DNA from: a virus
DNA: 23,364 bases
Reading direction: 5' to 3' (one strand)
IMG/VR virus record: IMGVR_UViG_3300028008_002168
Span: 1 to 23,364 of that record
Under the pieces are notes generated by a model that saw only the letters and a list, made by a program, of their open reading frames with translations, did no database searches and was not told the origin of the DNA. The position numbers and the translations under genes are program-made. Positions 1,784 through 13,587 of this stretch are shown here, piece after piece (position 1 is the stretch's first letter; the number at the start of each line of letters is the position of its first letter).

Positions 1784-1995
1784 GCAGCACCTGCCTGCGC
1801 ACGCGCTGCGCGACGAGCGGCGGCGACAGCACCTGCAGCGCTCTTGCCCTGCCGCAGTACGGCATTGGCGGCGAAGCTGGCGGATGCGACGACCTGGTGG
1901 GGGAGGAGGCCCCAGCGGCGCCCGGCGCGGGCAACGATGCCGGCGGCGGCGGCCGCGCGCTGGGCGTTGGAGTGGTGGGCGAGGGCGACGCTCAT
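1780..1995 (-). CDS. Small Ala/Arg-rich hypothetical protein (71 aa)
   Basis: The product begins MSVALAHHSNAQRAAAAAGI and is rich in Ala and Arg throughout, with a predicted helical, basic character. High GC makes such sequence easy to obtain by chance, but the frame is supported by ATGA overlaps with the genes on both sides (1992-1995 and 1780-1783). The function is unknown; a nucleic-acid-binding role would fit the charge but is not shown. Confidence 0.6.
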   Translation of the reverse strand: MSVALAHHSNAQRAAAAAGIVARAGRRWGLLPHQVVASASFAANAVLRQGKSAAGAVAAARRAARAQAGAA

Positions 1996-2180
1996 GCGGC
2001 GGCCGCCGTACTGCTGCGCAGCTCCAGCGCTGCCTGCTGAATATCCAGGGCGAGGCGATCCGCCTCCTCCTGCTCAACGTACAGGCTGGCGGCGCCGACC
2101 TTGATTGCGACCATGCCCACTGCGGGCATGGCGACTACGGAGGGTGGCGCCTTGCTGACGCCGACAGACATGGTGGCCAT
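1992..2180 (-). CDS. First gene of the leftward operon, hypothetical (62 aa)
   Basis: The product begins MATMSVGVSKAPPSVVAMPA and ends with a helical segment containing EQEEADRLALDIQQAALEL. The N-terminal half is Val/Ala/Gly-rich but not hydrophobic enough for a confident membrane segment. The ATG at 2180 is preceded by an AGGAG site about 7 nt upstream. It is the first gene after the leftward promoter at 2235-2263, so it should be the first early protein made from that transcript. No family is recognised. Confidence 0.65.
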   Translation of the reverse strand: MATMSVGVSKAPPSVVAMPAVGMVAIKVGAASLYVEQEEADRLALDIQQAALELRSSTAAAA

Positions 2181-2234: not shown

Positions 2235-2263
2235 ACATTACCGAAACGGTTATTGATCGTCAA
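2235..2263 (-). promoter_or_regulatory. Leftward early promoter (PL-like)
   Basis: On the minus strand a TTGACG -35 (plus 2258-2263) is followed by a 17-bp spacer and a TAATGT -10 (plus 2235-2240). The -35 matches consensus in five of six positions; the -10 is weaker. The start site would fall near 2228, giving a leader of about 48 nt before the ATG at 2180. One operator overlaps the -10 edge and spacer and a second lies just upstream of the -35, so repressor binding should control it. Confidence 0.65.
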
Positions 2264-2275
2264 TACCAAAACGGT
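2240..2275. promoter_or_regulatory. Left operator pair (ACCGAAACGGT type)
   Basis: Two 11-bp sites, ACCGAAACGGT at 2240-2250 and ACCAAAACGGT at 2265-2275, have centres 25 bp apart. Each is a hyphenated palindrome (ACCG-AAA-CGGT) as expected for a dimeric helix-turn-helix protein. The same sites with the same spacing occur at 3203-3238 on the other side of the repressor gene. The binding protein is inferred to be the repressor, the Cro-like protein, or both. Confidence 0.75.
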
Positions 2276-2315
2276 AATTGGTATCGAATGAGCCAGCCGG
2301 TGAGGCTTCACCGCC

Positions 2316-2343
2316 ACAAAAAAGGCCCCGTAGAGGGGCCTTA
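2316..2343 (-). terminator. Intrinsic terminator of the repressor operon
   Basis: A perfect 8-bp stem (AAGGCCCC at 2322-2329 and GGGGCCTT at 2335-2342) with a 5-nt loop is followed on the minus strand by a run of six T. It lies 14 bases beyond the stop of the 119-aa gene and before the leftward promoter, so it separates the repressor transcript from the leftward early transcript. Confidence 0.85.
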
Positions 2344-2356
2344 GTTCAAGGGGAGA

Positions 2357-2716
2357 CTATTCGTACCTGGGGCGGAGTAGGCCCGCATCCTCGAATGAAA
2401 CGCCGTCGCGCATGCACTCCATTCCTCGTTCCATGTCGCGGTGCAGGGCAATGAGCTGGTTGTCCTCCAGTTCTTCAATGCCGGTTAGCCCGAAGCACGC
2501 CTGATCGATCAGCATTTGCATCGCAGGTCCCCAATGCCGCCGATAGTGGCGAATCATGCGGTAATGCGAGTCCTTGGTGAGGCTGTTCATGCCTCGCGGT
2601 GCCTTTTCGGGCACAAGGCGGAGACGTGGTGCGGGCACTGCCGGCGCTCTGTCCCCATCCATCGCCCTAGCCAGCCGCTGCGCCAGTTCCTGCAGCTGGT
2701 CCTCTCGTAACGCCAT
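2357..2716 (-). CDS. Repressor-operon partner, hypothetical (119 aa)
   Basis: The product begins MALREDQLQELAQRLARAMD, has a Pro-rich middle (residues 25-42) and a helical C-terminal half containing HYRRHWGPAMQMLI and an acidic ending ELEDNQLIALHRDMERGMEC ... GVSFEDAGLLRP. That acidic ending looks like a segment I associate with other xanthomonad prophage proteins, but I know no assigned function. The ATG at 2716 follows a GGTAAGG purine-rich site. Its first 50 bases overlap the 3' end of the repressor gene in another frame, so the two are co-transcribed and probably co-regulated. It could modulate the repressor or immunity; that is inference from position only. Confidence 0.75.
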   Translation of the reverse strand: MALREDQLQELAQRLARAMDGDRAPAVPAPRLRLVPEKAPRGMNSLTKDSHYRMIRHYRRHWGPAMQMLIDQACFGLTGIEELEDNQLIALHRDMERGMECMRDGVSFEDAGLLRPRYE

Positions 2717-3164
2717 CCTTACCCCCCTTTCGCTCCAACCGCTCGACAAATGCGCGCATGAAATCCAACACGTTGTTGTCATCGAGCGTCCGCGCCTCTG
2801 CCGCAATCGTCTCGTAAGCGATGGCGAGGGCGTTGGCGTCGATGGTCGGTACAGGGCCGCCACCGCGGATCTCTGACACCAACTGCAGCAGCCGTATTGC
2901 GGAGCGAAGAGTAGGAACGTCGAGTCCCATAGATTGAGATTCGCCGGAAGCACGGTCGAGAGCCCCGGTCGGGAGGCCCATCGCTGCCTCTAGATCGCGC
3001 GCCAGGCGATGGCCGATTCCTTTCGGATTCGTCTCTGAGATCCACTGACTGACCTGCGGCTGCTGCCAGCGAGTTCCGCCGAACTGGCGTGCCCAGTCGG
3101 CCGGGCCGCCAGCGGCGGCCACGCGTTGGCGCATGTTGATGGTTCTGAGGGTGCTGGCGTCCAT
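2667..3164 (-). CDS. CI-like phage repressor without peptidase domain
   Basis: From the ATG at 3164 the product is 165 aa. The N-terminal part (about residues 5-65) carries a helix-turn-helix of XRE type, with the likely recognition region around QQPQVSQWISETNP and the supporting helices RLARDLEAAMGLP. The C-terminal part (about 80-150) is helical and ends in a Gly/Ala-rich tail. It lacks the LexA-like (S24) peptidase region and its Ala-Gly, Ser and Lys signature, so RecA-stimulated self-cleavage is unlikely. In-frame ATGs at 3191 and 3185 are alternatives, but they overlap a degenerate operator and have poor ribosome binding sites; the chosen start has AGGA 11 nt upstream. The flanking paired operators support a repressor role. 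Its own promoter was not clear to me. Confidence 0.8.
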   Translation of the reverse strand: MDASTLRTINMRQRVAAAGGPADWARQFGGTRWQQPQVSQWISETNPKGIGHRLARDLEAAMGLPTGALDRASGESQSMGLDVPTLRSAIRLLQLVSEIRGGGPVPTIDANALAIAYETIAAEARTLDDNNVLDFMRAFVERLERKGGKDGVTRGPAAGTGAAAG

Positions 3165-3199
3165 GGTCGCAATGGTCCTATCCATTACCATTTCAGGAA

Positions 3200-3229
3200 A
3201 TGACCGAAACGGTATTGCGCTCGTATAAC
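3200..3229 (+). promoter_or_regulatory. Rightward early promoter (PR-like)
   Basis: ATGACC at 3200-3205 (four of six matches to the -35 consensus) and TATAAC at 3224-3229 (five of six to the -10) are separated by 18 bp. The start site would be near 3236, about 15 nt before the ATG of the Cro-like gene. Operators at 3203-3213 and 3228-3238 sit on the -35 and -10 regions, so occupancy would block the polymerase directly. Confidence 0.65.
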
Positions 3230-3238
3230 CGAAACGGT
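3203..3238. promoter_or_regulatory. Right operator pair (ACCGAAACGGT type)
   Basis: Two identical ACCGAAACGGT sites at 3203-3213 and 3228-3238 have centres 25 bp apart, the same spacing as the left pair. A more degenerate relative, ACCATTTCAGG at 3187-3197, overlaps the upstream alternative starts of the repressor gene and may be a third site for autoregulation; this last point is weak. Confidence 0.8.
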
Positions 3239-3250
3239 AATGTGCAGGGT

Positions 3251-3748
3251 ATGAACCTCACCGACTACGCCATATCGAAGGGGGGCACCGCCAAGATCGG
3301 GTGCCCGGTGTTGGGCAGCACGGCGTCTAACGCCAGATGCAGCGCCGCCACTCTCTACATGATCGCCAGGGGCCACAAAACGGTAAGCGCCAGACTGGCC
3401 GTTCGGATCGCGGACGCGACCGACAATGCCGTTGCAGCTGCTGACCTTCGCCCGGACCTGTTCCGGGCCGCCACTCCAGCAGCCATGAGCGGCGAGTCTG
3501 AGCCCATGGTCGATGCGAAGTGGACGAAGCGCGCGCTGCGTAGCTATCTGCACATGGCAAACGACGGGCAGCTGGCCAAGGTTCTGCAGTTGCCTGCCGA
3601 GCAGGTAGCTGGCTGGTCCGAAGAGGGCGCGCTGCCGGCGCTGCCCCAGGTGATGAAGCTGCTGGGACACATCGAGCAGCGGGAGCCGGTCAAACCGGCG
3701 AACGAAGACCCCGATGCAGAGCGAATCGCCCCAATTGAGGTGGCTTGA
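3251..3748 (+). CDS. Cro/YdaS-like regulator with a second HTH-like region
   Basis: The 165-aa product begins MNLTDYAISKGGTAKIGC. Residues about 3-65 resemble small Cro/YdaS-type helix-turn-helix proteins, with the likely recognition helix around SAATLYMIARGHKTVSARLA and a loop insertion just before it. A second region near 95-145, containing NDGQLAKVLQLPAEQVAGWS and LPQVMKLLGH, also has helix-turn-helix character, which is unusual for a Cro protein. The start at 3251 is preferred over 3200 because the earlier frame would run through the promoter and operators. The ribosome binding site (AGGG) is very close to the ATG. It is divergent from the repressor and first in the rightward operon, the classical position of cro. 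Confidence 0.75.
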   Translation: MNLTDYAISKGGTAKIGCPVLGSTASNARCSAATLYMIARGHKTVSARLAVRIADATDNAVAAADLRPDLFRAATPAAMSGESEPMVDAKWTKRALRSYLHMANDGQLAKVLQLPAEQVAGWSEEGALPALPQVMKLLGHIEQREPVKPANEDPDAERIAPIEVA

Positions 3749-11916: not shown

Positions 11917-13587
11917 ATGACGCCCACCGAATCAGCCAAGGCCTACGCCAAGGGCGTGACGGCTGGGAAGATCATCGCAGGCGAGTACATCCGGTTGGCG
12001 TGCCAGCGGTTCCTCGATGACCTGAAGCGCAAGGGGGCCGACTGGCCCTACAAGTACGACGCCGACAAAGCCGATCGTGCGGTACGTTTCATGGAGAAGA
12101 TGCCGCACACCAAGGGCAAGTGGGCTTCGCAGAAGAAGCTGCTGGTGCTGGAACCCTGGCAGCGGTTCATCGAGTGCAACCTGTTCGGCTGGGTCCACAA
12201 GAAGACCGGGCATAGGCGGTTCCGCCGGTCCTACGAGGAGATCGCCCGTAAGAACGGCAAGTCGCTCCGGCTGGCCGCGCGCGGCCTGTACCTGTTCTGT
12301 GCCGACGGTGAGGCTGGTGCCGAGGTGTACTCAGGCGCCACCAGCGAGAAACAGGCATACGAGGTGTTCCGCCCGGCCTGGCAGATGGTGCAGAAGCTGC
12401 CGGCGCTGCGCTCGCGGTTCGGCATCGAGCAGGCCGGCAACCCGAAGAACCCCGGTCCGCTCTTCGTCATGGAGGACATGTCGAAGTTCGAGACGATGAT
12501 TGGCAAGCCGGGCGATGGCTCCAGCCCGCACGCGGCGCTTGTGGACGAGTACCACGAGCACGACGACGACCACATGGTCGATGCGATGGAAACCGGCATG
12601 GGCGCGCGTGAGCAGCCCCTTTTGTCGATCATCACCACGGCGGGAACCAACCTGTCCGGCCCGTGCTTCGAGATGCGGAGCGATGCGGTCCGCATTCTGC
12701 GCGGGGAAGTGACTGACGAGACGGTGTTCGCCGCGATCTACTGCATTGACGAGGGCGACCGCTGGGACGATCCGGAGGTGCTGCGAAAGGCCAACCCGAA
12801 TTTCGGGGTGTCCGTGTTCGAGCAGTTCCTGGTCGACATGCTTGCCAAGGCAAAGCGCTCTGCCAGCAAGCAAAGTGCATACCGCACCAAGCACCTGAAC
12901 GACTGGGTGGGCGCCAAGCTGGCATGGATGAACATGCTGGCCTGGCAGCGGCAGAAACGTCGGTTTGAGATCTCGGACTTTGCTGGATGCCCCTGCTGGG
13001 TCGGCGTCGATCTGGCGTCGAAGCTGGACGTGGCCGCGGTCGTGCTCCTGTTCGAGAAGGGCGACAGCTTCTACGCCATCCCGCGCTTCTATGTTCCCGA
13101 ATCAGCGGTGGAGGAAAACGAGAAGTACCAGCAGTTCCTGCTGGATGACCTGATCGTGGCCACGCCGGGAAACATGACCGACTACGCCTTCATCGAAGAG
13201 GAATTGAAGGAGCTTGCGGCGCAAGGCATCGATGTGCGGGACATTGCCTTCGATCCGGCCCAGGCGGCGTATCTGATGACCCGTCTGGAGCAGGAGAGCT
13301 TGCCGGTTGTCGAGATGGCGCAGTCCGTGCGCAACCTATCTGAGCCGATGAAGGAAGTAGAGGCGCTGATCCTGTCGCGCCGCCTGTGGCACGACGGCAA
13401 CGCGGCGATGACCTGGATGATGGGCAATGTCGTGGCGAGGGTGGATGCCAAGGAACACGTCTATCCACGCAAGGAAAAGATGGAAAACAAGATCGACGGC
13501 GCGGTGGCGCTAATCATGGCCATGGGCCGCGCCATGCAGGCGCGGGACACCGGCATAACCCAACAAGGCTTCGTGGTGATCGACTGA
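11917..13587 (+). CDS. terL: Terminase large subunit (HK97-type)
   Basis: The 556-aa product is a Terminase_1 family packaging motor. The N-terminal ATPase has a Walker A-like ARKNGKS near residues 110-116 and a Walker B with VDEYHEH near 209. A threonine-containing coupling motif IITTAGTN follows. The C-terminal nuclease domain begins around GVDLASKLDVAAVVLLF (D near 365) and has further acidic residues (FIEEELKEL, DIAFDPAQ). It translocates DNA into the prohead and cuts the concatemer. The length is typical for the family. Its stop overlaps the portal start (TGATG). Confidence 0.93.
   Translation: MTPTESAKAYAKGVTAGKIIAGEYIRLACQRFLDDLKRKGADWPYKYDADKADRAVRFMEKMPHTKGKWASQKKLLVLEPWQRFIECNLFGWVHKKTGHRRFRRSYEEIARKNGKSLRLAARGLYLFCADGEAGAEVYSGATSEKQAYEVFRPAWQMVQKLPALRSRFGIEQAGNPKNPGPLFVMEDMSKFETMIGKPGDGSSPHAALVDEYHEHDDDHMVDAMETGMGAREQPLLSIITTAGTNLSGPCFEMRSDAVRILRGEVTDETVFAAIYCIDEGDRWDDPEVLRKANPNFGVSVFEQFLVDMLAKAKRSASKQSAYRTKHLNDWVGAKLAWMNMLAWQRQKRRFEISDFAGCPCWVGVDLASKLDVAAVVLLFEKGDSFYAIPRFYVPESAVEENEKYQQFLLDDLIVATPGNMTDYAFIEEELKELAAQGIDVRDIAFDPAQAAYLMTRLEQESLPVVEMAQSVRNLSEPMKEVEALILSRRLWHDGNAAMTWMMGNVVARVDAKEHVYPRKEKMENKIDGAVALIMAMGRAMQARDTGITQQGFVVID

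Follow-up and report, generated by a model that had tools for sequence, protein, structure and literature searches.

A predicted lambda-type lysis/lysogeny switch with paired operators around the repressor gene of a temperate siphovirus

Analysis of a 23,364-base viral record (hereafter the window, meaning the whole stretch of DNA) indicated that it very probably contains the immunity region, or lysis/lysogeny switch, of a temperate siphovirus, working by the mechanism set out below. A repressor gene and a cro-like gene diverge with operators between them (OR), a second operator region (OL) lies at the leftward early promoter, and the whole is arranged in the register of phage lambda. By this architecture we class the region with the lambda-type immunity regions, as a variant, and place it outside the self-cleaving CI family.

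The sequence ACCGAAACGGT occurs exactly at 2240-2250, 3203-3213 and 3228-3238 of the window, and ACCAAAACGGT, a one-mismatch copy, at 2265-2275. These four sites form two pairs, both with a centre spacing of 25 bp, as the initial annotation had described; its remark that the window holds no other close match also held, as no further ACCGAAACGGT match at ≤1 mismatch was found in the 23,364-base record. When the window was resampled with an order-1 Markov model, at most three such sites arose, and never four, in 300 trials. The distance from OL to OR in the window is 938 bp between the inner sites and 988 bp between the outer ones. Among IMG/VR contigs, 16 carry the exact pair with a gap of 14 nt; same-strand ACCGAAACGGT pairs with gaps of 4–34 nt numbered 24, of which 16 had the 14-nt gap, and opposite-strand pairs were seen at one locus only.

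The pairs are conserved with the repressor. Searching with the repressor protein, without regard to the operators, retrieved 16 viral loci at 45–100% identity; in each of them the pair lies upstream of the repressor gene, its two sites beginning 74 and 49 nt ahead of the ATG. A profile search widened the set to 33 loci (30 viral contigs, two genomes and the window) with 28 distinct OR regions. The OR pair was present at exactly 25 bp in all 28 distinct sequences, with repressor identity down to ~41%, although this count overstates independence because the sequences are related and do not stand for 28 separate events. The OL pair was found beyond the repressor gene in 15/15 close relatives with enough DNA, a count that leaves out L158 and several short contigs. 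The initial annotation had proposed a lambda-like OL/OR switch and had named beforehand the lack of the sites in related phages as the finding that would speak against it; the comparison came out in favor of the lambda-like reading. The OL pair was not found in the distant clade L179-L183 nor in L191, and the two-pair design is therefore not universal; no recognizable version of the operators was present in the distant relatives L159-L162. In L179-L183, what lies ~897 bp downstream of the repressor start is one near-perfect palindrome, ATTACCTTAAAGGTAAT, or else a series of ATTACC half-sites.

Repeats of this kind could in principle be unrelated to a switch and serve as replication iterons, partition sites or coding repeats. 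A loose pattern scan of GTDB genomes did return mostly coding repeats, with Stenotrophomonas maltophilia D5.1 as the only true member. However, the repeats of the window family are not tandem, no exact site lies outside OL and OR in seven phage records of 30–51 kb, and fixed positions are held at two promoters around the repressor gene in 28 distinct loci, so that the probability left to this explanation is negligible. An exact pair also occurs in Sphingobium sp. SYK-6 (L007:7773-7808 / L034:7137-7172), at a promoter before an ORF with ASATG repeats; it was rejected as a family member, as the promoter is different and the genome contains no such repressor.

Beyond the close family, the central five bases of the operator vary (GTGCA, GTGGA, GCCCC, GAACC, GTATC), and the arms, ATTAC(C/T) and a GGTAAT-like sequence, are kept. 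Because the center varies freely while the arms persist, the operator is, on this comparison of relatives, a 17-bp ATTACC-N5-GGTAAT element of the same length as lambda's, and the 11-bp core is a part of it; the description of the sites as short 11-bp palindromes was corrected accordingly. The claim of two sites per operator was upheld at OR, where a third, OR3-like repressor site was absent from all 28 distinct regions. All 64 operator sites of the close family, at OL as well as OR, place the central TTT on the repressor-coding strand despite the opposite directions of PL and PR; in the distant relative L188 this strand rule is broken at one OL site.

The operators are fitted to predicted promoters. 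The leftward promoter PL (2235..2263, minus strand; TTGACG-17-TAATGT) has its −35 at 2263-2258 and its −10 at 2240-2235, and equivalents exist in all relatives with OL. The OL1-like promoter-proximal operator, with an exact core (2240..2250; 17-bp operator 2237-2253), overlaps the PL −10 with its final base, and the OL2-like promoter-distal operator with one mismatch (2265..2275; 17-bp operator 2262-2278) stops 1 nt short of the PL −35. The rightward promoter PR (3215..3243, plus strand; TTGCGC-17-TAATGT) has its −35 at 3215-3220 and its −10 at 3238-3243, with the cro-like ATG 7 nt on. Here the OR1-like operator (exact core 3228..3238; 17-bp operator 3225-3241) reaches from the PR spacer into the −10, and the OR2-like operator (exact core 3203..3213; 17-bp operator 3200-3216) lies between the −35 elements of PRM and PR, its center lying 44 bp before the repressor ATG. 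The fit is repeated in all close relatives, where the distal operator stops a single base short of a TTGNNN −35 and a TAAYNT-like −10 begins on the final base of the proximal operator. The proposal that one pair overlies a rightward promoter and the other a leftward one was thus borne out, with the sites locked to −35 and −10 in close relatives.

Alignment of the OR regions on the repressor ATG revealed a conserved ATTT adjoining OR2 and a GACCAT hexamer ~17 nt beyond. Positions 2 and 6 are the bases of greatest importance in a −10 element, and in GACCAT the A at position 2 and the T at position 6 are present in 28/28 distinct OR regions and the A at position 5 in 27/28; outside the key A and T the hexamer matches TATAAT poorly. 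Its distance to OR2 is fixed, and its gap to the repressor ATG is 6 or 7 nt. We read these blocks as a predicted weak PRM whose −35 abuts OR2, with OR2 centered at −44; in the window, PRM and the repressor mRNA start would occupy 3165..3200 on the minus strand (−35 TTTCCT at 3200-3195, −10 GACCAT at 3177-3172, ATG 7 nt on). Alternatively, the GACCATT block before the repressor start (3171-3177) could be a Cro-specific OR3-like site, given that it is invariant or nearly so, is placed as lambda OR3 is, and corresponds in position to the one site bound by a telomere-phage Cro (PMC4488713). However, the block is not palindromic, it keeps a constant distance from OR2 and the −35 while the gap to the ATG changes (6 or 7), and the variants GAGCAT, CAGACT and CACTAT retain exactly the A2 and T6 of a −10, and we consider a Cro site unlikely. 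With GACCAT taken as the PRM −10, the gap from −10 to ATG is 6–8 nt in nearly all loci (for the cro-like ATG after PR, 6–8 nt, and 10 nt in L190), and the repressor and Cro-like mRNAs are for this reason predicted to be leaderless or nearly so, starting at or adjoining the AUG. A consensus promoter scanner detected none of PL, PR and PRM in the window because it requires 4/6 matches in the −10.

The prophage repressor (2667..3164, minus strand) is a 165-aa protein with an XRE-type helix-turn-helix (HTH; helices 21-29 and 35-41) and without an S24 protease domain. Its structure was modeled as an HTH domain, with 35-41 as recognition helix, followed by a short helical C-terminus of low confidence, and the model has the helical HTH fold of XRE and lambda repressors. 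The protein matched a PHROG annotated 'transcriptional repressor' (5e-20), and its best structural match was Rep of phage SPC32H (5d50; Z 10.6, rmsd 2.0 over 71 residues, 21% identity). Pfam gave no hit for the window repressor and no Peptidase_S24 C-terminal domain, and a PDB sequence search with the repressor profile gave no meaningful match. An upstream start at 3191 was rejected, as L151 has no start codon there and the frame is broken in L158. Residues 1-76 are 71–89% identical in L142-L156, and the remainder falls to ~20%. The L190 repressor (3001-3696) joins this DNA-binding half to a Peptidase_S24 C-terminal domain (4.6e-20), and the phage keeps both the OR pair and the OL pair. The DNA-binding half and the operators behave as a single unit, retained when the C-terminal half is exchanged.

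The repressor shares its operon with a conserved second gene, a 119-aa ORF (phrog_27415; 2357..2716, minus strand) whose start overlaps the 3' end of the repressor gene and which occupies the position of lambda rex. An intrinsic terminator (2322..2342, minus strand) closes the operon just before OL. Variable small genes, predicted lipoproteins among them, stand between the 119-aa gene and the terminator in some phages. Variable lipoprotein or membrane-protein predictions fill the rex position at L148:4818-5237, L149:4824-5072 and L155:4863-5354, and these small genes are candidates for lysogenic-conversion cargo expressed with the repressor.

On the other side of OR, the Cro-like protein (3251..3748, plus strand; 165 aa) has an N-terminal HTH nearest to YdaS of prophage CP-933P. 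Its first ~76 residues gave YdaS 8co2 as best fold match (Z 8.7, rmsd 2.8 over 70 residues, 26% identity), and its Pfam YdaS_toxin score was below the cut-off (17.8 vs 30 bits). Downstream of PR follow an O-like replication gene and a Q-like antiterminator. The leftward early operon begins with a 62-aa ORF (1992..2180, minus strand) preceded by an AGGAGA ribosome site, and what lies downstream of PL varies among phages. An RNA family scan of the window gave no match.

As the N-terminus of the Cro-like protein has an HTH fold and is conserved over the same loci, and no separate Cro site is evident, the sites might primarily be operators of this YdaS-like protein and not of the repressor. However, the OL pairs adjoin the repressor operon and not cro. 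Repressor residues 1-76 are strongly conserved in L142-L156, where the operator cores are invariant, while the C-terminal half diverges, and in phiKO2 the Cro protein binds OR3 only and the repressor all five sites (PMC4997575). We regard a primarily Cro-directed role as improbable and take the sites to be repressor operators, which the repressor and the Cro-like protein may both bind.

The initial annotation had taken the shared spacing to suggest cooperative side-by-side dimers. Site spacing equals the promoter spacer plus 8 in every case: at OL it is 26 bp, with an 18-nt PL spacer, in L154, L156, L008 and L018, and L155 and L156 have a common C-terminal domain yet differ at OL (25 vs 26 bp). 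The OR spacing stays at 25 bp with C-terminal domains only 20–29% identical and also with the S24 domain of L190. Because the sites are locked to −35 and −10, move to 26 bp with an 18-nt spacer and keep 25 bp across C-terminal swaps, the shared spacing is weak evidence for cooperativity, and promoter geometry is enough, judging from these alignments, to account for it. Among relatives, OL and OR lie 936–1,751 bp apart and no helical phase is preferred, and an OL-OR DNA loop is for this reason possible but unsupported. Geometry alone could thus set the spacing, each dimer blocking one promoter element independently, with neither cooperativity nor a loop. Lambda sites, however, are likewise promoter-locked, at 24 bp, and yet cooperative, so the lock does not exclude cooperativity; moreover, the 26-bp cases may reflect no more than three evolutionary events, or as few as one, and extra bases inserted between the sites would frequently land in the promoter spacer anyway. 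We give this purely geometric explanation a substantial chance, though one clearly below even.

A lambda control computed from J02459 gave OR1-OR2 and OL1-OL2 spacings of 24 bp, PR and PL spacers of 17, an OR2 center 42 bp from the cI ATG, and a PR whose −35 overlaps the end of OR2 and whose −10 overlaps the end of OR1. As in lambda, two operator regions flank the repressor operon of the window, PR and PL have 17-nt spacers, with the distal site at the −35 and the proximal one at the −10, and accessory gene(s) and a terminator stand between the repressor and OL, where lambda has rexAB. The site spacing (24 bp in lambda, 25 bp in the window) and the distance from OR2 center to leaderless repressor start (42 and 44 bp) are close. 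In contrast to lambda, which has three sites per region, the window has two and is missing OR3 and OL3. Its repressor also has no S24 domain, its cro message is predicted to be leaderless, with the cro ATG 18 bp from the OR1 center and not 35, the OL-OR distance in the window family is 0.9–1.8 kb and not 2.36 kb, and the operator sequence is unrelated. The immB region of the telomere phages N15, phiKO2 and PY54 is a lambda-like switch with 16-bp operators and a repressor without cleavage residues; N15 and phiKO2 have two sites at OL, and the PY54 cI and cro mRNAs are leaderless (PMC4997575, PMC4488713). The window resembles them in its repressor, which lacks the S24 self-cleavage domain, its two-site OL and its predicted leaderless repressor and cro messages, and differs in that they have three OR sites (N15/phiKO2) or one (PY54) and an OL that controls plasmid replication. 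SPC32H Rep, the closest solved structure to the DNA-binding domain of the repressor, is of similar length and also without an S24 domain. It has a tetramerization domain bound by Ant (PMC9638917, PMC9986798) and is relieved when this antirepressor breaks the Rep tetramer (PMC9638917), whereas neither such a domain nor an ant gene was recognized in the window, where the C-terminus of the repressor model is of low confidence. YdaS of the E. coli O157:H7 prophage CP-933P shares the fold of the Cro-like N-terminus and lacks the additional C-terminal region of the Cro-like protein, which scores under the Pfam YdaS cut-off.

Taken together, the layout suggests how the switch would operate. In the prophage, dimers of the 165-aa repressor would occupy both OR and both OL sites. 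At PR as at PL, the proximal site covers the −10 together with the spacer, and its distal neighbor stands against the −35; with this placement, binding would shut off both early operons. Since OR2 directly abuts the PRM −35, 44 bp from the start codon, repressor bound there is predicted, by analogy with lambda, to activate its own synthesis through sigma contact, while OR1 would block cro. Upon loss of the repressor, the leftward operon would be expressed from PL, and the cro-like gene, the O-like replication gene and the Q-like antiterminator gene from PR. Induction would probably come through an antirepressor or other input, because the repressor has no S24 self-cleavage domain.

Searches of INPHARED with the switch region, the repressor and the Cro-like protein, at DNA and protein level, gave no match, and the literature on Stenotrophomonas phage switches yielded no description of the present system; the closest named carrier is S. 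maltophilia D5.1 (L123/L157). The terminase large subunit (11917-13587) shares 68% identity with its counterparts in Pseudomonas phages, PMG1 among them; known phages thus have the structural module in common with the window, but not the switch. To our knowledge, no switch with two plus two sites and such a repressor has been described. We tentatively propose, at a little short of even probability, a phage family whose switch works without OR3, with two sites per region, a leaderless repressor that is purely positively autoregulated, a leaderless cro, and a fixed, tradable immunity module of DNA-binding half and operators joined to an exchanged C-terminal half that provides S24 self-cleavage or another mode of induction. 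If this is true, C-terminal exchange would let phages of the same immunity answer different induction signals. L190 shows in natural sequences that immunity specificity can stay fixed when the domain that governs induction changes. The family would also serve as a natural experiment on whether a stable switch needs OR3 and on whether repressor cooperativity or promoter geometry fixes the distance between operators. These results provide a complete and testable map of a lysogeny switch, with four operators, three promoters and two regulators, for a Stenotrophomonas-associated phage family.
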